Shown here one piece after another: positions 6,923-48,695 of a DNA stretch of 64,000 nt. Position numbers and translations under genes: made by a program. The notes beneath the pieces are model-generated. The model was not told the origin of the DNA and did not search any database. It saw only the letters and a program-made list of their open reading frames with translations. The number at the start of each line of letters is the position of its first letter. Within the stretch, counting starts at the first letter, position 1. This DNA comes from Alphaproteobacteria bacterium (GTDB taxonomy: Bacteria; Pseudomonadota; Alphaproteobacteria; Micavibrionales; Micavibrionaceae): positions 124,001-188,000 of the forward strand of contig WGMJ01000018.1 of NCBI GenBank assembly GCA_016125135.1, in the 5' to 3' direction.

Positions 6923-7369
6923 TTATTTTTTGGTTTTCAACGGTTCGGACATCAGCCCGACCTTTGTAAACCCTGCGCCATTGATCGCGCCGATAACCTT
7001 CATAATATCGCCATACATCACGCCTTGGTCACCGCGTACATATATAACGCGCTCGGGTGCGTTTTGTAGGATGCTTGCAAGTAATGGCACAAGTTTCTCG
7101 TACTGTACTTCGCTTTCACCGACATATATTTTCTTGTCTTTTGTAACAGTCACTTCCAGCGGCTTGTCATCATTCTGGTTCATCGCCTTGGCTTGCGAGT
7201 CCGGCAAATCAATCGGCACGCCTGTTGCCAGCATCGGCGCCGTCACCATGAAAACAATCAGCAGCACCAGCATAACGTCCACAAACGGTGTCACGTTAAT
7301 CTCGGCGACTTGGCGGTACGCATAGCGTTTCTTGCCGCTTCGCACCATATGCATTGAAGAACCAGCCAT
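6923..7369 (-). CDS. tolR: TolR, ExbD/TolR biopolymer transport protein
   Basis: This 148-residue protein has a single N-terminal transmembrane helix with the conserved membrane aspartate in INVTPFVDVMLVLLIVFM, which carries protons through the TolQR motor. A periplasmic ExbD-like domain follows. It sits 2 bases after tolQ and 34 bases before tolA, forming one operon. Confidence 0.96.
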   Translation of the reverse strand: MAGSSMHMVRSGKKRYAYRQVAEINVTPFVDVMLVLLIVFMVTAPMLATGVPIDLPDSQAKAMNQNDDKPLEVTVTKDKKIYVGESEVQYEKLVPLLASILQNAPERVIYVRGDQGVMYGDIMKVIGAINGAGFTKVGLMSEPLKTKK

Positions 7370-7371
7370 CG

Positions 7372-8157
7372 TCAGGCTACTTTCTGCCCGCGTGCACCGC
7401 CACCACGGTCATGCGAGTCAAGATGGCGTGAAAGCACTGCCAGAAAATCAGATGAAAATGTTTCAAGCCTGTCGGCATAACGCGCAATCAAGGTTGCAAA
7501 GACGTTATAGGCAATCATCGCGGGGATCGCCGCCACCAGACCAATCGCTGTGGCGAACAAAGCTTCCGCAATACCCGGCGCGACAACGGCAAGGCTTGTA
7601 TTGTTGGAATTCGCAATCGCCGTAAAGCTACGCATAATCCCCCACACAGTCCCGAAGAGACCAACAAAGGTCGCGCTGGAACCAACAGACGCAAGGAACG
7701 TCATGCCGCGCTCGAGCCTGTGCATTTCACGCTGGATCGAAGCCGACATTGCGCGTTCAATACGTTGTTTCAGGCTTGTTTGCAAAGCTTCCGTTGAAGG
7801 AATACCGGCGGCAACACCTGTTTGCCATTCTTCCATGCCAGCTGTGAATGTAACGAGCAGCGGGTCAGCAGGGTTTTTCTTTACGCGTGTGTAAAGTTTT
7901 TCCAAAGGCTCGCCCGACCAGAACGCCTCTTCAAAACGTGTTGCACGGCGGTTCAGTTTGTTCAACGTCATGCGCTTTGAAACAACAATCGTCCACACCC
8001 AGACAGATGCAAACAACAACATCAGGATCACGCATTTCACGATAACATCAGACTGCATGAACAAGCCCCACATGCTTAAATCGTGATGCATCGTTGCAAG
8101 CGCTGCGCCGTTCACTGCTTCGGCGGGTGCCGCCATAATTCCATTTTCTGCTGTCAT
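7372..8157 (-). CDS. tolQ: TolQ, MotA/TolQ/ExbB proton channel
   Basis: The 261-residue inner-membrane protein has a periplasmic N-terminus, a first helix around residues 38-60, a large cytoplasmic loop, and the conserved double-helix segment. That segment is marked by LERGMTFLASVGSSATFVGLFGTVWGIM and APGIAEALFATAIGLVAAIPAMIAYN. It forms the stator of the Tol motor with TolR. ybgC lies 93 bases upstream, separated by a palindromic repeat that may modulate expression between the two genes. Confidence 0.96.
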   Translation of the reverse strand: MTAENGIMAAPAEAVNGAALATMHHDLSMWGLFMQSDVIVKCVILMLLFASVWVWTIVVSKRMTLNKLNRRATRFEEAFWSGEPLEKLYTRVKKNPADPLLVTFTAGMEEWQTGVAAGIPSTEALQTSLKQRIERAMSASIQREMHRLERGMTFLASVGSSATFVGLFGTVWGIMRSFTAIANSNNTSLAVVAPGIAEALFATAIGLVAAIPAMIAYNVFATLIARYADRLETFSSDFLAVLSRHLDSHDRGGGARGQKVA

Positions 8158-40596: not shown

Positions 40597-41064
40597 TTAT
40601 TCGTCGAGTGCGCGGCGTGAAAGCTTCTCGAGTTCTTTTTCAACAAGACGCTCGACAATTTGCGGCACGTTATCGTGGATCCACTCACGCAGCATCGGGC
40701 GCATCAGGTCACGGACGATATCTTCCAGCGTCAGGCCAAGGCCCGAACGTTGTACCTGTACGGTTTCAGCCAGCTTGTAAAAAGCGCCGACAGTGGCATC
40801 AGATGCTTTTTCAGAGAAAATAATGGGCTCCGGTGCCGGCTCTTCGTCTTCAGGCTCTGGCTCAGGTTCGGGCTCTTCCACAGGTGTTGTAAGCTCAAGC
40901 ACGTCTTCTTCAGCTGGCGCGGGCTCTGGCGCAGGAGGAGGAGGCGGAGGCGCAGGCGGGGCTGCTTCCTCGGCTTTTGGCTCTTCTTTAGGGGCATCAT
41001 CGTCAGAAATGATCTGGCGGATGGAGGCGAGGATTTCCTCGATTGACGGTTCTTGATCGGCCAT
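40597..41064 (-). CDS. popZ: Polar organizing protein PopZ (DUF2497)
   Basis: The 155-residue protein has an N-terminal short helix with EPSIEEILASIRQIISDDD, a Pro/Glu-rich disordered linker (about 28-85) and a C-terminal oligomerisation region LTLEDIVRDLMRPMLREWIHDNVPQIVERLVEKELEKL. This is the PopZ layout. PopZ condenses at the cell pole and tethers ParB-parS and signalling proteins. Presence of popZ beside valS is a strong alphaproteobacterial marker. tolC is the expected upstream neighbour but is displaced by about 5.3 kb here. Confidence 0.93.
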   Translation of the reverse strand: MADQEPSIEEILASIRQIISDDDAPKEEPKAEEAAPPAPPPPPPAPEPAPAEEDVLELTTPVEEPEPEPEPEDEEPAPEPIIFSEKASDATVGAFYKLAETVQVQRSGLGLTLEDIVRDLMRPMLREWIHDNVPQIVERLVEKELEKLSRRALDE

Positions 41065-41206
41065 TTTGCGCCCGAAATATTGGTTTTTAGGTTATAGATT
41101 TCGGATATTGGCCGATAAGTGAAGTCTTGTCAAAGGCTTGGCCCCTCTTTCCCGCCCCCCATGTGGATAGTTTTATTCTTTTATATATTAACATAATTTG
41201 TTGATT

Positions 41207-42526
41207 ATGGCTGGCCCGTTTGCTATGTCTGTAGGAATGCTTGATAAAAGGACGCTGAAGAGGGTTTTTACAGCGGTGGTTGTTGCCGCCGGTGCCTTTG
41301 CGCCTGTAACCCCGCCCTACCGCGAACCGGCCTCTATCACAACACCTGCCCTGCCCCAAGTACCGACAATTGACCCCAATATATTGCCTGATGACCCGTG
41401 CCAATACACACCGGACCAGACACGCATTGCATTGCTAGAACGACCCCTGCCAGAAGGACAAGCTCAACGTTTTGTTCTTATGAACTGCGTGCGCGATGTT
41501 CTGGAACAGATTCCAAATGCCGACCAACTTGTAACAACAACAGAAAACTATCTCCGGCAGTATGACCTGACGGATGCACAGATTAATCTTGTACGTCCCT
41601 ACATTCCCGAGAATTATATTTTCATACGGGAAGACCACCCTTATGCCTTAACGCTCATGCTTGCCGAAAGCTATTTGAATGCTGAAAGTGCAGGCATTGA
41701 ACCTGATCAGAACTTCTTTGATGGCAAGCGGGAAGTCTTCGAAGAAATTGTCAGCAGCAATTATGCGCTCTTTCCGTTCAGATCTATTTGCGATAGCTGC
41801 GATGGTGGTATTATCCTTGCGCCAGTCCCTTCTATTGTAAACGAAACATCTTTAGCAACACCACTCACATTGCCGCATATGCAAACACCACAGTGGCAGC
41901 GGGATTTCAACCTTCTGATCACCTTCCATGAACTCGGGCATGTCCCCTGCTTCTCGCTTGTATCACCTGCGATAGGCGATACGGACCTCCACTTTGAAGC
42001 CTGTGGTGATGTTGTTGGCATCTCGCTTCTTTCAGCGGTGAGAGGATACACACCACGCGCAGCCCATGATTTTCTGCAATATCGCCGCATACAGGATATC
42101 AACAAACCGCTACGGCTCGAGAGATCCGTTGATGCCGCACACAGCACTTATCTGATTTTAAACGAGTATTTTTATGATGATGCAGGCGTCATTCTTACAC
42201 CGCAAACGATGCTGCAAAATCTGGACGATATAAATGGCTTGGGACGAACACCCGCCTTTACCAATTATAGTGCCTATGAAATTACAGGCGCAACACGCGA
42301 GGCCTTCCGCCTGATGAGCGCACAAGGGTTGAATAGCCCGGATATGCAAGTGCGGGCGCAAGCAGCCAGAAACGCGCTTGCCGCAATCGATTCAGACCGC
42401 ACCCATGCCTATTACCCGATCACACGCGATATTGTCGAAGATTATATGGAGGCTACAAACTATTGGTATGGCCCTAGCCTAGCACACCCTGTGGCCCCGT
42501 CGCCTATCACCCTGCAAGGGCCATAG
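41207..42526 (+). CDS. Secreted HExxH metalloprotease-like protein, array member 1
   Basis: About 430-440 residues. The signal-like segment RTLKRVFTAVVVAAGAFAPV fits best with a start at ATG 41237 (MLDKRTLKR); 41207 and 41225 are in-frame alternatives, none with a good Shine-Dalgarno. The catalytic signature is LITFHELGH (codons 41927-41941), then DLHFEACGDVVGISLLSAVRG, which supplies a third glutamate. The CDSC pair (SICDSCDGG) is shared with member 4. The C-terminus ITRDIVEDYMEATNYWYG is the family tail. It does not match a named peptidase family that I can identify. Member 2 starts 3 bases after its stop. Confidence 0.75.
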   Translation: MAGPFAMSVGMLDKRTLKRVFTAVVVAAGAFAPVTPPYREPASITTPALPQVPTIDPNILPDDPCQYTPDQTRIALLERPLPEGQAQRFVLMNCVRDVLEQIPNADQLVTTTENYLRQYDLTDAQINLVRPYIPENYIFIREDHPYALTLMLAESYLNAESAGIEPDQNFFDGKREVFEEIVSSNYALFPFRSICDSCDGGIILAPVPSIVNETSLATPLTLPHMQTPQWQRDFNLLITFHELGHVPCFSLVSPAIGDTDLHFEACGDVVGISLLSAVRGYTPRAAHDFLQYRRIQDINKPLRLERSVDAAHSTYLILNEYFYDDAGVILTPQTMLQNLDDINGLGRTPAFTNYSAYEITGATREAFRLMSAQGLNSPDMQVRAQAARNALAAIDSDRTHAYYPITRDIVEDYMEATNYWYGPSLAHPVAPSPITLQGP

Positions 42527-42529
42527 GCC

Positions 42530-43810
42530 ATGAAACGGGGAGCGCTTGCATTGTGTTTTTTAATGACAGCTTGTGGCGGCGACGGTAAAGATATTGCCGA
42601 ACCAACCAGCATGAATGTGGATGTAGCAAGCTCGCCTGTTGGTGCCCCACGCCAACCACTTCATTTTGATGATTGCCCTGCCACGCTCCCTTCTTATGCG
42701 CAACTTGAAACAGCTGATTTCTATACTCAGCCGCTGGCCACCCGGACCATCTGGTGCATGATGGAACAACTCGAGACAGCGCCTGAGTCACGCGACTATG
42801 TACGAACAACAAGAGAATATTTGCAGGAGCTCGGCGTTACAGATTCGCAATGGGAATCGTTAGCCCCCTACCTGCCTGAGAATTTTCATTTTGTTGATTA
42901 TAATTTTTCTTCTGCTACGGGCGTTGCAGCAGGCGCTGTTTATTTAAATACAATTGAGAACAGCCACCTACCCTCGTTCTGGGAAATGCGGGTTCGTCTA
43001 CTCTTCCTTGGGATTATGGACGGCGAAAGTTACCGGCTGGGCCTCCCCCAGAATGATTTCACGGAACGCGATGACGGTTATATTTTTATGCCCTCTCCCG
43101 ATGAAACAGACCTAAATCTCGGCCATATGAATTTCGTGCCTGCATACCGGCAAACAGAAGAATACCGTCGTGATATGCTGCTACTGATCTTCTTTCATGA
43201 AATCGGTCATTATATTGAGGGATCACAAGGACACCCTTTTTCAAATTACCCGAATTACAGCGAAGCATCACCCGATATCATTGCACTTGGTGCTCTTGCC
43301 TTCTTACGCGGCAGGGTTACGCCTGCCATGCAAGACTTTACGATGTGGCGGGATATGAGTTCGCTCAATACCATCATAGGAATGCCCGACTGCAATATAG
43401 CGACAACGCATAGCACAGGCACAATTATAAGACCGCATTACGAAACATTACTCACACGTACTGATTTTTCGACCGCCCTCCTTGATGAAGCCTTCGATAC
43501 GCACAGGCTTATACAAGTGCCAGCCTTCGTAAAGTTCAATGAAAACAGTATACGAGACTCTGTAGCCGAAGCTGCTACTTTAATCTGCAGTAGAAATGAA
43601 AACGGCCCTAACGGCTACCGCCAGCGTATGACGGCCGCGCAAACATTAGCAAGAGAAATAGACCAAGGTACCCTGCATGTCCATAATTTCCAGACCCGAA
43701 CTGTACTGGAAAATTATATACGCGCTATGACGCATTGGTATCCGGATCAAATAGTTTTAACAACGCCTGAACAAACGCAGGACGGGTTACGACCACGCTT
43801 GCCTGGCTAA
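42530..43810 (+). CDS. Predicted lipoprotein HExxH metalloprotease-like, array member 2
   Basis: This 426-residue protein has a lipoprotein signal (MKRGALALCFLMTACGGDGKD, cysteine at 15), unlike its paralogs. The family core is present: TIWCMMEQLETAP near the N-terminus, LIFFHEIGH (codons 43196-43210), NYSEASPDIIALGALAFLRGRVTPAMQDFTMWRDM, THSTGTIIRPHYETL and the tail NFQTRTVLENYIRAMTHWYPDQ. The glutamate of SEASPD is the likely third zinc ligand. Probably co-transcribed with member 1. Lipidation would anchor it to the envelope while the others may be soluble. Confidence 0.75.
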   Translation: MKRGALALCFLMTACGGDGKDIAEPTSMNVDVASSPVGAPRQPLHFDDCPATLPSYAQLETADFYTQPLATRTIWCMMEQLETAPESRDYVRTTREYLQELGVTDSQWESLAPYLPENFHFVDYNFSSATGVAAGAVYLNTIENSHLPSFWEMRVRLLFLGIMDGESYRLGLPQNDFTERDDGYIFMPSPDETDLNLGHMNFVPAYRQTEEYRRDMLLLIFFHEIGHYIEGSQGHPFSNYPNYSEASPDIIALGALAFLRGRVTPAMQDFTMWRDMSSLNTIIGMPDCNIATTHSTGTIIRPHYETLLTRTDFSTALLDEAFDTHRLIQVPAFVKFNENSIRDSVAEAATLICSRNENGPNGYRQRMTAAQTLAREIDQGTLHVHNFQTRTVLENYIRAMTHWYPDQIVLTTPEQTQDGLRPRLPG

Positions 43811-43893
43811 AATATAGAGTTTCCTTGCAGCAGCAGATCTATTTTGCTATGCAAGATATAAGCAAATAAAAAAACAAATTATAAAACAGGGTA

Positions 43894-45094
43894 ATGGTTT
43901 CCGGCATGAAGCGTTCCGGCACAATCGCGGCAATTTTCTTCGGCCTGATGGCAGGCAGCGCTGTACCTACACAAAACCCATGGGTATCACCGCATGGCAG
44001 GTTACAAGATAACGCGCTGGAATGCCCTGATGAACTTCCTGCTGCAGATAGCTTATTGGATGACGCCACTATTTACACGGCACCAGATGCCGTTGTGCAG
44101 GTTTCATGCGTGCTGGAGCAGCTTTATGAAAGCCCTGCAGGGCAAAACAATATTCTGAGCGTTAAGGATTATCTTTTGCAACAAGGCATCACAGCAGACC
44201 AGTGGGAAACACTACGGCCCTTCTTGCCGCAAGATGTACTAACCGTAAATGCAACTTACCAAGACTTAATGCCTTTTATGGCCGGCATTATTTATTTAAG
44301 CGATATACAATCAGACAATATTGAAAGCAGAGAAGACTGGCAAAACAGCACACGCCGGATGCTGGAAGGCCGTGTTGCCGCCCTGCGTGGAAGTATTCAT
44401 GAAAATTATAGCTCGTTACTCTATTCGGATTTCCGCCAAGGCGCAGCTGGCGGCATATCAATACTTCCTGCCCGCGGGCAACGCGTTACAGCATTTGATT
44501 ACCTCCCGTTTCATCAAGCTGCGCGGCAAACAGCGGAATATCAAAACGATATGCGCCTGCTGATGGCGTTTCATGAATTATGCCACTATGGCGGCGGTGA
44601 AGCATCGGGCCAGCTTACACGTACCGATATACCAAATCATGCAGAAGCCGCTGCTGACATATGCGCACTCTCCATCATGGCACATCTGCGTGGCGGCATA
44701 ACCCCCGCCATGCGTGACTATGTAGCGTGGCGCAAGTTTGACAATATGAACTTTGCGCTTTCTGCAGGCATGGTGCCGATTACGCACGCTGCAGGCCGTA
44801 TTGTTGAAGCCTATATGGCAGACCTTGAAGCGCGCGGTGATTATTCGGAGCGCATACTGGAAAAAGCATTTGCAACGGATCAATTGCTGGCAACGCCCAC
44901 AGCGCGCAGGCCAGTTTACACGGCTGCAAGCAGCACAAAATGTGCTGACGGGCATCCAGAACGGTGAGATAGAATATACAAACCATGAGACACCCCGCGT
45001 CATTAGCGATTTTATAGATGGTTTGCTGCACTGGTGCCCTGATTATGCGGGTGTTTTAAGAAGGCCTGCCGCAGAACCTGTTCCCGGCAAATAA
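43894..45094 (+). pseudogene. HExxH metalloprotease-like, array member 3, broken by an out-of-frame deletion
   Basis: The reading frame from 43894 (or ATG 43906, MKRSGTIAAIFFGLMAGS) gives a signal peptide, CVLEQLYESP, AFHELCHYGGG (codons 44572-44586), NHAEAAADICALSIMAHLRGGITPAMRDYVAWRKF and THAAGRIVEAYMADLEA. It then runs into a stop at 44967. The expected tail is found in another frame: QFTRLQAAQNVLTGIQNGEIEY to ISDFIDGLLHWCPDY, ending at 45094. About 35 residues present in the paralogs are missing at the junction (near 44.90-44.93 kb), so a deletion not divisible by three, or a sequencing error, is likely. The catalytic core is intact, so a shortened product could still be made. Confidence 0.75.
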
Positions 45095-45168
45095 GAATAA
45101 GGGCTTGCCAGCCCCTAGCCTGCCTGCTACCGATAATAAAAAGAAGAAGAACAGGGTCGGAAACAATT

Positions 45169-46443
45169 TTGGCAAAAGCAGATTTTATAGGTGCTCTCGG
45201 GCTTTCACTAAGCCTGCAATTTGCAGTCGCAACAGCAGCGGAAGCACAAATCACCATACACGACAACCCTTTGGCTTCTGAAATTACACGCATACAGCAA
45301 ACAACCGATTGCACAAACAACAGCATGACAGCGCAAAGCCTGACACAGGCTGGATTGCCCGAAAGCGCCGCAGAGCGACAACGGCAAGTAGAATGTACAT
45401 TAGCCGACCTGTATAACGCAGGCCAAGAGCAATATATTTTAACGCCTGCCGAGTATTTTGCGCGCTTTGGTTTGAGTGCAGATGCAGTTGCACGGGTTAC
45501 ACCTTATTTGCCACAAGATTATACCGTCATCACCGAGAATTATCCGCAAGCTCTCGCCTTCCTGAGCGCTTACGAATATATGGAAGACTTTCAGCTACAA
45601 AATGCTGACCCCGGCATGATACATCTTGTCAGTGTGCTTGGCACGCTGACTACCCAGATGCGCAATTCATATTTTACAATGAATTTTGGCAATACCTGCA
45701 ATGGCTGTGACGGCGGCGTTATTTATGCGCCTGACCCTGCCGCCACATTCCCTACCCTTATGAATGCCAGCTTTACCTTGCCGCATATGCAGCAACGCCA
45801 ATACCAGCAGGACATGGCCTTGCTTGTTGTGTTGCACGAGCTTGGGCATCCTTATTGTATTACCGGCAGTGGTAATCCGGCTTTTCAGCAAACGGCCAAC
45901 CACTCGGAAGCCTGTTCCGACATATACGCCCTTACAATGCTAGCGGTCTTGCGCGGCGGCGTCACACAAGCCATGCGTGATTTTGTTATGTGGCGTAAAA
46001 TGACAACGATCAACAGCACGCTTGATGACAGGCCCGGCCGTACTGCCGTATTTGAAACACATGGCACAGGCCAGATTATTGAATCTTATTTAAATGAATT
46101 ATCAGAGCGGCGCAGTTTCCCGCCAAGCCTTTTACGCGATATCAGCGATATACCACGCCTGATGCGCTCACGCCATTTCAGGGCTTATAATGATGCTGAC
46201 ATTACCGGCGCCACCGATGAAGCTTTTGACCTGATGTTGCGCTATGGGCTTCGCCATGATTCATGGGCGCAACGTGTATTTGCCGCCCAAAGAACACTAA
46301 ACGCAATCGAGAGAGGCGAAGTAAGACCTGCCCATGCACTCACCAGGCGTATTATAGATGATTACCGTGAAGCGACGGATTATTGGGGCGGTATAACAGC
46401 AGCACAGGAGCCGATTGCCGTTAACGGACGTCGTCCTCAATAG
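45169..46443 (+). CDS. Secreted HExxH metalloprotease-like protein, array member 4
   Basis: The 424-residue protein starts at a TTG (45169) with AGGGTCGG upstream and has a signal peptide (GALGLSLSLQFAVATAAEAQ). Core motifs are VECTLADLYNAGQ, NTCNGCDGGVIYAP, LVVLHELGH (codons 45835-45849), NHSEACSDIYALTMLAVLRGGVTQAMRDFVMWRKM, THGTGQIIESYLNELSE and the tail LTRRIIDDYREATDYWGG. Cys pairs near the core suggest disulfides in the periplasm or outside. It converges on tolC, with a 23-base overlap of the coding ends. Confidence 0.75.
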   Translation: MAKADFIGALGLSLSLQFAVATAAEAQITIHDNPLASEITRIQQTTDCTNNSMTAQSLTQAGLPESAAERQRQVECTLADLYNAGQEQYILTPAEYFARFGLSADAVARVTPYLPQDYTVITENYPQALAFLSAYEYMEDFQLQNADPGMIHLVSVLGTLTTQMRNSYFTMNFGNTCNGCDGGVIYAPDPAATFPTLMNASFTLPHMQQRQYQQDMALLVVLHELGHPYCITGSGNPAFQQTANHSEACSDIYALTMLAVLRGGVTQAMRDFVMWRKMTTINSTLDDRPGRTAVFETHGTGQIIESYLNELSERRSFPPSLLRDISDIPRLMRSRHFRAYNDADITGATDEAFDLMLRYGLRHDSWAQRVFAAQRTLNAIERGEVRPAHALTRRIIDDYREATDYWGGITAAQEPIAVNGRRPQ

Positions 46444-47797
46444 CGGTCGAGAACCATTTGTCTTCAGCTTCGTTTACAATTTTTGCTGTATCAAGCTTCA
46501 GCTCGGCAAAGCCCAGTGTTTCCGGTGTCAGTTCACCGGCAATCGCTGCGAGTTGGTAGGCCGCAAAAATAGCATCGCGCTGCGCTGTTACAAGGCCCAC
46601 TTCGGCATCGAGCAATTCACGCTCGGCGTCAAGCACATCAAGCACAGTACGCTCGCCCACGCGGGATTCTTCCAATACACCTTCACGCGCAACGCGGTTG
46701 GCATCGACCTGCGCACGGCGCGAAACAATATTGGCTTGTGATGCGCGATAATCTTCCCATGCACTGATAATCTGGTCACGCACCTGGCGCTCGGCATCGA
46801 GCACGTCATAAAAGCGCTGGTTCGCAACATATTTACTCTCGCGCACGCGGGAGCGCGTTGAACCTGCTTCATAAAGCGGCATGACGGCCTGAATACCAAT
46901 AGCGGCCGAGCGTTCTTCATCAATTGTCCCGAGGCCCGGGTCATAACTTTGCCCCAGCGAGCCAACCAAGGCGACCTCTGGCAACAAAGCGCCTGAAATA
47001 GCACCTATACCGGCTTTTGCTGCCTGATGAACATGCGTTGCGGTTTTGAGTGATGTATTCCCTGCAAGCGTATTTTGTACGGCAGAGTCCAGACTCTCAG
47101 GAATAGAGAACGGATATTGCGTCGGGAAAGCCAGTTTCTCGACACGCATGCCGGTAATCTCGCGGAAAGAGGCTTCGGATGATTTCAGGTTACCGCGGGC
47201 GCTTGTGACATTCGCTTCGGCATCGGACAAACGCGCACGCGCTTGTGATGTATCGGTTTTTGTCAGTTCGCCCACTTCGAAACGTGCATCGGTGGCTTCA
47301 AGCTCTTTGGCGATTGTCTCGCGGTTTTTCTCGGCGAGCTGCAAAAGCGAGCGGTCGCGCAACACATTCAGATAAACCTGTACAGCGCTGAGTAAAACGG
47401 ATTGTTCTGTTGTGGCCAAATCCCACTCTTGCGCTTTAATCAACTCACGCGCTTGTGATGTGCTGGCAACAGTGCGGCCACCCCGATAAAGTGGCTCGGA
47501 AAGTACAACACCGAATTCCTTGGCGAGGTTGTCTTCTTCTGTGCCCGGGTCTTCATCAACGCTGATCTGCGTTACGCTGGCATCGGCTGTAATCGTGGGG
47601 CGGTAACCAGCCAATGCTTGCGGCAATTGTTCGACCACGCTTTTAAATTCAGAACGTGCAGATTTTAACCGCGGGTTATCGAGATAGGTATTTTTTAATA
47701 CCAACTCAAGCGGCAATGTTTCATTGCCGGCAGGCTGCGCCATAACAGGCATCGTAATAAAGGTAGCTGAAACAAGAAGGAGCGTGAAAAAGCGCAT
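46421..47797 (-). CDS. tolC: TolC-family outer membrane efflux/secretion channel
   Basis: The 458-residue protein has a signal peptide (MRFFTLLLVSATFITMPVMA) and two OEP repeats. Landmarks are LVLKNTYLDNPRLKSARSEF, VLSEPLYRGGRTVA, VRLSDAEANVTSARGNL-like helices and the second-half VMPLYEAGSTRSRVRESKY, with LDAERELLDAEVGLVTAQRD near the end. TolC trimers give type I secretion and efflux systems a path across the outer membrane. Its start coincides with the pcm stop, as in other alphaproteobacteria. The protease array occupies the gap to popZ. Confidence 0.94.
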   Translation of the reverse strand: MRFFTLLLVSATFITMPVMAQPAGNETLPLELVLKNTYLDNPRLKSARSEFKSVVEQLPQALAGYRPTITADASVTQISVDEDPGTEEDNLAKEFGVVLSEPLYRGGRTVASTSQARELIKAQEWDLATTEQSVLLSAVQVYLNVLRDRSLLQLAEKNRETIAKELEATDARFEVGELTKTDTSQARARLSDAEANVTSARGNLKSSEASFREITGMRVEKLAFPTQYPFSIPESLDSAVQNTLAGNTSLKTATHVHQAAKAGIGAISGALLPEVALVGSLGQSYDPGLGTIDEERSAAIGIQAVMPLYEAGSTRSRVRESKYVANQRFYDVLDAERQVRDQIISAWEDYRASQANIVSRRAQVDANRVAREGVLEESRVGERTVLDVLDAERELLDAEVGLVTAQRDAIFAAYQLAAIAGELTPETLGFAELKLDTAKIVNEAEDKWFSTAIEDDVR

Positions 47798-48621: not shown

Positions 48622-48695
48622 GGCGCGGTGGCCGAGTGGTCAGGCAGAGGTCTGCAACACCTTCCACGCCGGTTCGATTCCGGCCCGTGCCTCCA
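48622..48695 (+). tRNA. tRNA-Cys (GCA)
   Basis: A complete cloverleaf: acceptor GGCGCGG paired with CCGTGCC, anticodon loop CTGCAAC (anticodon GCA), T arm GCCGG-TTCGATT-CCGGC, discriminator T as expected for Cys, and an encoded CCA. It is a single tRNA between pcm and the coiled-coil orphan. Confidence 0.95.

Follow-up and report, generated by a model that had tools for sequence, protein, structure and literature searches.

Between popZ and tolC, the window (the whole stretch of DNA that was analysed, 64,000 nucleotides long) carries a tandem array of four paralogous open reading frames, all on the plus strand (positions 41198-46443), which on balance we take to encode an orphan family of exported, gluzincin-like, single-zinc peptidases, with three genes intact and one truncated. 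This reading draws on sequence comparison and on a predicted structure. The four products share 24-33% identity in pairwise comparisons with BLASTP E values of 1e-20 to 1e-58, indicating kinship rather than chance. The original prediction of a four-paralog tandem array holds as far as four related genes on the same strand are concerned, but gene 3 is broken and three genes are intact.

Table 1. Features of the array and its flanks, in window coordinates
Feature	Coordinates	Strand	Landmarks or basis
popZ (DUF2497)	40597..41064	-	Pfam; flank, divergent from the array
Gene 1, predicted exported HExxH protein	41237..42526	+	HELGH 41927-41941; Glu codon 41996; later His codon 42140
Gene 2, predicted lipoprotein, lipobox LMTAC	42530..43810	+	HEIGH 43196-43210; Glu codon 43262; later His codon 43409
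Gene 3, truncated paralog	43894..44967	+	HELCH 44572-44586; Glu codon 44644; later His codon 44785
Gene 3 C-terminal tail remnant, different frame	44922..45094	+	Profile match, frame inspection, repeat search
Gene 4, predicted exported HExxH protein, TTG start	45169..46443	+	HELGH 45835-45849; Glu codon 45907; later His codon 46060
tolC-like outer membrane efflux protein (OEP)	46421..47797	-	Pfam; flank, convergent, outside the array

Organization of the array

Three bases separate the stop codon of gene 1 from the start of gene 2, and the remaining intergenic gaps are ~80 bases. Given such short gaps, genes 1-4 are likely to be carried on a single transcript. The reading frame of gene 1 is also open from a TTG at 41198, but the ATG at 41237 is the more likely start, from which the putative signal peptide would open MLDKRTLKR.

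Each paralog had been described as 420-440 residues in length, which does not apply to gene 3. This copy loses its frame near 44900 and reaches a stop at 44967 after 357 amino acids, while the homologous tail, after a loss of roughly 30-40 residues at the join, resumes in another frame and extends up to 45094. A profile match to model positions 369-408, at C17:168918-169037 of the genome, is this same tail remnant. Judged from its reading frames, gene 3 is a decaying copy affected by a frameshift plus a deletion between 44900 and 45094, in which a C-terminal remnant can still be read; a sequencing or assembly error at the join may be the alternative to a true truncation.

A hydrophobic N-terminal segment is present in all four proteins, called from hydropathy and by eye; that of gene 2 contains a lipobox-like LMTAC and the signal of gene 4 ends in AEA. 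The expectation of a signal peptide or lipobox is borne out to the extent that each of the four has an export-type N-terminus. The mature proteins contain 4-6 cysteines, an even number in each of the three intact proteins, with six in gene 1 and six in gene 4. In the alignment, genes 2-4 have two cysteines in common (C48 and C76 in gene 4), and gene 1 matches them in position with C68 and C97. Four further cysteines, located in CxxC, HELGHxxC and EAC, are common to genes 1 and 4 and missing from both 2 and 3. Because the counts are even, and because these four residues are either kept together or missing together, the cysteines are probably paired as disulfides.

Sequence searches and distribution

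The original prediction could not place the proteins in a named peptidase family, and our searches agree. Profiles from Pfam, NCBIfam, PHROGs and PADLOC gave noise only against the array proteins, with no model at threshold and no strong match to any known peptidase family in Pfam. Profiles for M49, M4 and M36 (Pfam and NCBIfam, up to E 10) did not match the array proteins, and no match was found when PDB sequences were searched with a profile of the four window genes. The M35 aspzincins were considered and rejected, as they matched gene 4 only, at 13.5 bits against a curated cut-off of 30.

Within its own genome, the array family is confined to this locus. Searches of 57 close genomes, of 142 genomes of the order, and of 385 genomes sampled across the class and 398 across the phylum recovered no full-length relative. 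A pattern scan of genome contigs (594 stretches, none confirmed) and of viral contigs revealed no relatives of the array, nor did tblastn against plasmids and phages. As the class and phylum searches and the pattern scans covered samples or were filtered, the term orphan is valid within the sets searched. One weak match in the class-wide search (L011, E 5e-4) lies outside the HExxH region and was judged to be chance. The suggestion that the array is lineage-specific is in agreement with these searches, as no set contained a full-length relative outside this genome.

Active-site motifs and predicted fold

Despite pairwise identities of 24-33%, H-E-x-x-H, E-A-x-x-D, an arginine and a later histidine are invariant in all four genes, including the HExxH predicted for each paralog. 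A following helix of the form N(H/Y)(S/A)EA..D had also been proposed; this form is found in genes 2-4, but the corresponding segment of gene 1 is LHFEACGD. In thermolysin, the equivalent residues are H146, E166 and H231, and the array proteins resemble it in the order and spacing of HExxH, glutamate and later histidine. By analogy, HExxH would supply two histidine zinc ligands and the catalytic glutamate, the third zinc ligand would come from the EAxxD glutamate of the following helix, and the later invariant histidine would take the role of His231. Gluzincins are defined by a glutamate 18-72 residues C-terminal of HExxH (PMC4580569). In the array proteins this distance is 18-20 residues, and all four therefore combine HExxH with a glutamate inside the range for gluzincins, MA(E).

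An AlphaFold2 model of gene 4, built from an input alignment of just four sequences, is of medium confidence (pLDDT 64, pTM 0.68) and is better in its core than at its ends. Helices make up most of the model, which contains little beta sheet, and HExxH, EAxxD and the later histidine each lie on a separate predicted helix. When compared with 997 chains by VIA-align, gluzincins fill 14 of the 15 top rows, led by dipeptidyl peptidase III (DPP III; 5zum, Z 7.0), followed by LTA4 hydrolase (5.4), M36 (5.4), aureolysin (5.3) and ERAP2 (5.3), although by the tool's own note Z values in this range are middling. Foldseek gave no significant match for this model or for that of the second family described below, and the absence of a family from its lists does not rule that family out. 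The comparison of predicted structure with gluzincin folds is therefore favorable in that the top neighbors are mostly gluzincins, but the Z scores are middling, Foldseek returned nothing significant and the model is of medium confidence. Taken together, the model suggests a gluzincin-type fold, with the weight resting, in our judgement, on the many HExxH enzymes of different families at the top.

The best neighbor, DPP III of Corallococcus sp. EGB, is an M49 enzyme that aligns with the gene 4 model over 252 residues at an rmsd of 5.1. In both, a glutamate helix comes after an HExxH-type helix, and by one account the pentapeptide HExxH motif occurs in some M49 enzymes (PMC5805324). However, identity in the structural alignment is just 8-12%, the window proteins have no Pfam M49 match, and they are shorter, exported and cysteine-containing. 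The thermolysin-like M4 and fungalysin M36 peptidases, neighbors of the gene 4 model at Z 5.2-5.4, are secreted and have in common with it the order HExxH, a glutamate in ExxxD ~20 residues on, and a later histidine; nevertheless, they show no sequence match to the window proteins, whose predicted fold is mostly helical.

A possible relative without signal peptides

A weak match in the order-wide search (L010, E 0.006) led to a second HExxH family, the members of which lack signal peptides. A profile search detects it in 28 of the 142 genomes of the order (loci L010, L012-L031, L037-L053 and further places), and its copies, which number up to 13 per genome, are often side by side; at L047, for example, four members lie between 326 and 7116. 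Carriers include a Micavibrio sp. MAG and MAGs assigned to Rhodospirillales, Alphaproteobacteria and Proteobacteria. The order appears to be Micavibrio-like, since the matches on the contig of the Micavibrio sp. MAG have coordinates that coincide with those of G132, one of the genomes of the order. Two members in G019 and G024, which belong to the window's own family of genomes, are likewise without signal peptides. The signal-less family has no entry in Pfam or NCBIfam; single members gave weak matches to the phage exclusion protein Lit (E 0.03) and Peptidase U49 (E 0.11), which possibly arise from HExxH alone.

The invariant residues of this family are H-E-H, E, A-D and a later H, in the layout HExxH / ExxAD / H, and it resembles the array family in the sequential arrangement of H-E-H, E, D and later H and in forming tandem runs. 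Its model, which is of good confidence (pLDDT 86.6, pTM 0.82), has the same top VIA-align neighbor, 5zum, at Z 8.8 over 191 residues with an rmsd of 4.5. When the profiles of the two families were aligned with hhalign, the match was 91.8% over 97 columns with a score of 55.9, compared to at most 38.5 in 60 column-shuffle controls in which HExxH was kept, and to 9.8% for an M48 control. The match depends strongly on HExxH, as masking this motif lowered the value to 1.2%, in the same register. Based on the shared active-site layout, the profile match and the common structural neighbor, the two families probably share common descent as branches of one group.

Alternatively, the families could be unrelated, having reached the same HExxH / ExxxD / H arrangement from different gluzincin ancestors, with the array acquired by transfer from an unsampled source. 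Separate origins would account for the absence of array members from the rest of the window's own family of genomes, for the failure of the signal-less profile to detect the window genes even when the genome was searched at E 10, and for the collapse of the profile match once HExxH is masked. The two also differ in export state and composition, since the window proteins have hydrophobic N-termini and several mature cysteines, whereas the signal-less proteins lack a signal peptide, contain few cysteines or none, have a different N-terminal region and are not found in the window's own genome. Nevertheless, the unmasked match exceeds both the shuffled and the M48 controls, the masked match keeps its register, both models point to the same neighbor, and the G+C content of the array (48-51%), which is similar to that of neighboring genes, disfavors a recent foreign source. 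We therefore consider separate origins unlikely, albeit with an appreciable chance of being correct.

If common descent is accepted, then the order may hold an undescribed gluzincin-like group composed of a signal-less branch and an exported, disulfide-stabilised branch, both diversified by tandem duplication, perhaps against different prey or competitors. We put this forward tentatively, and with less than even confidence; in sister families, one genome can carry up to 13 copies of the signal-less branch, and the exported branch is known from this genome only.

Proposed function

The prediction that the proteins are protease-like is upheld by the motif and by the structural neighbors of the model, but not by a match to a sequence family, and gluzincin-like, family unnamed, describes them best. 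The array proteins would carry out zinc-dependent peptide hydrolysis outside the cytoplasm, whether in the periplasm, at the cell envelope (as for the putative lipoprotein of gene 2) or outside the cell, and their substrates would most plausibly be protein or peptide derived from prey or from the environment. The epibiotic predator M. aeruginosavorus encodes many hydrolases, and in its attachment phase the Sec system is upregulated about 17-fold (PMC3189940). Given these observations, it is plausible that the array proteins digest prey protein, a link to predation made by analogy in which a predatory lifestyle of the host itself is assumed.

A different role is conceivable, in which the gluzincin scaffold has been kept but the proteins serve mainly as binding or structural proteins of the envelope, or as very specific processing factors, and not in digestion. 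The strong divergence between neighboring copies (24-33% identity), the decay of one copy, the restriction to one genome and the anchoring of one copy as a predicted lipoprotein would all be in keeping with such a role. Against it, loss of catalysis is usually visible first in the catalytic residues, and the residues expected for catalysis are all kept in the four genes, the damaged copy included. We consider a non-digestive role improbable, and favor exported peptidases.

Genomic setting and TolC

The gene order pcm-tolC-popZ-valS was predicted to be split at this locus, and comparison of synteny with 17 relatives indicates that the split is real. In these relatives, each with both genes on one contig, valS and tolC are 0.7-1.1 kb apart, compared to 5,880 bases here, and the gap holds popZ wherever its contents were inspected. 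As this gap is nearly constant, the array either was inserted into the site or arose there locally, the site being constant in other respects. Two genomes, G024 and G055, have a gap of ~2 kb with other content, and no single-copy relative of the array was found in either. In G024, a 296-aa open reading frame with a nucleotide-binding motif lies between popZ and valS (G024:C15:104600-107100), and popZ itself is long and contains an extended PEPE stretch of low complexity together with a run of N; the G055 gap contains small open reading frames. A search for marks of a mobile element found no tRNA inside the array (the nearest is at 48622), no flanking direct repeats that would indicate an element and no element ends; an origin as a mobile element was rejected on these grounds, and nothing found points to a recent arrival.

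The last 23 bases of gene 4 are shared with the tolC gene. Being convergent, tolC lies outside the transcription unit of the array, and since relatives that lack the array have it as well, nothing links it to the way in which the array proteins are exported. TolC-dependent type I export normally proceeds without Sec or lipoprotein signals. A type I secretion unit formed by the array and the adjacent TolC, which the original prediction had raised as a possible exit route and which has only physical adjacency in its favor, is very improbable, as tolC keeps its place in relatives lacking the array, the array proteins have Sec-type or lipoprotein signals as opposed to C-terminal type I signals, and neither an ABC transporter nor a membrane fusion protein lies within the insert. 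A type II exit was also sought through the secretins of the genome, of which two were found, one of them CpaC of a Tad pilus. The other is a 638-aa lipoprotein of the pilus or type II kind (G000:C10, near 7343-7918) that adjoins a predicted membrane permease.

Significance

The array is a new family inside a known clan-level kind. If active, its members would represent a new family of exported gluzincin-like peptidases in what appears to be the Micavibrio group, which includes obligate epibiotic predators. The larger signal-less relative may be the more interesting find, as it offers a lead on how these bacteria use expanded sets of protease-like genes.
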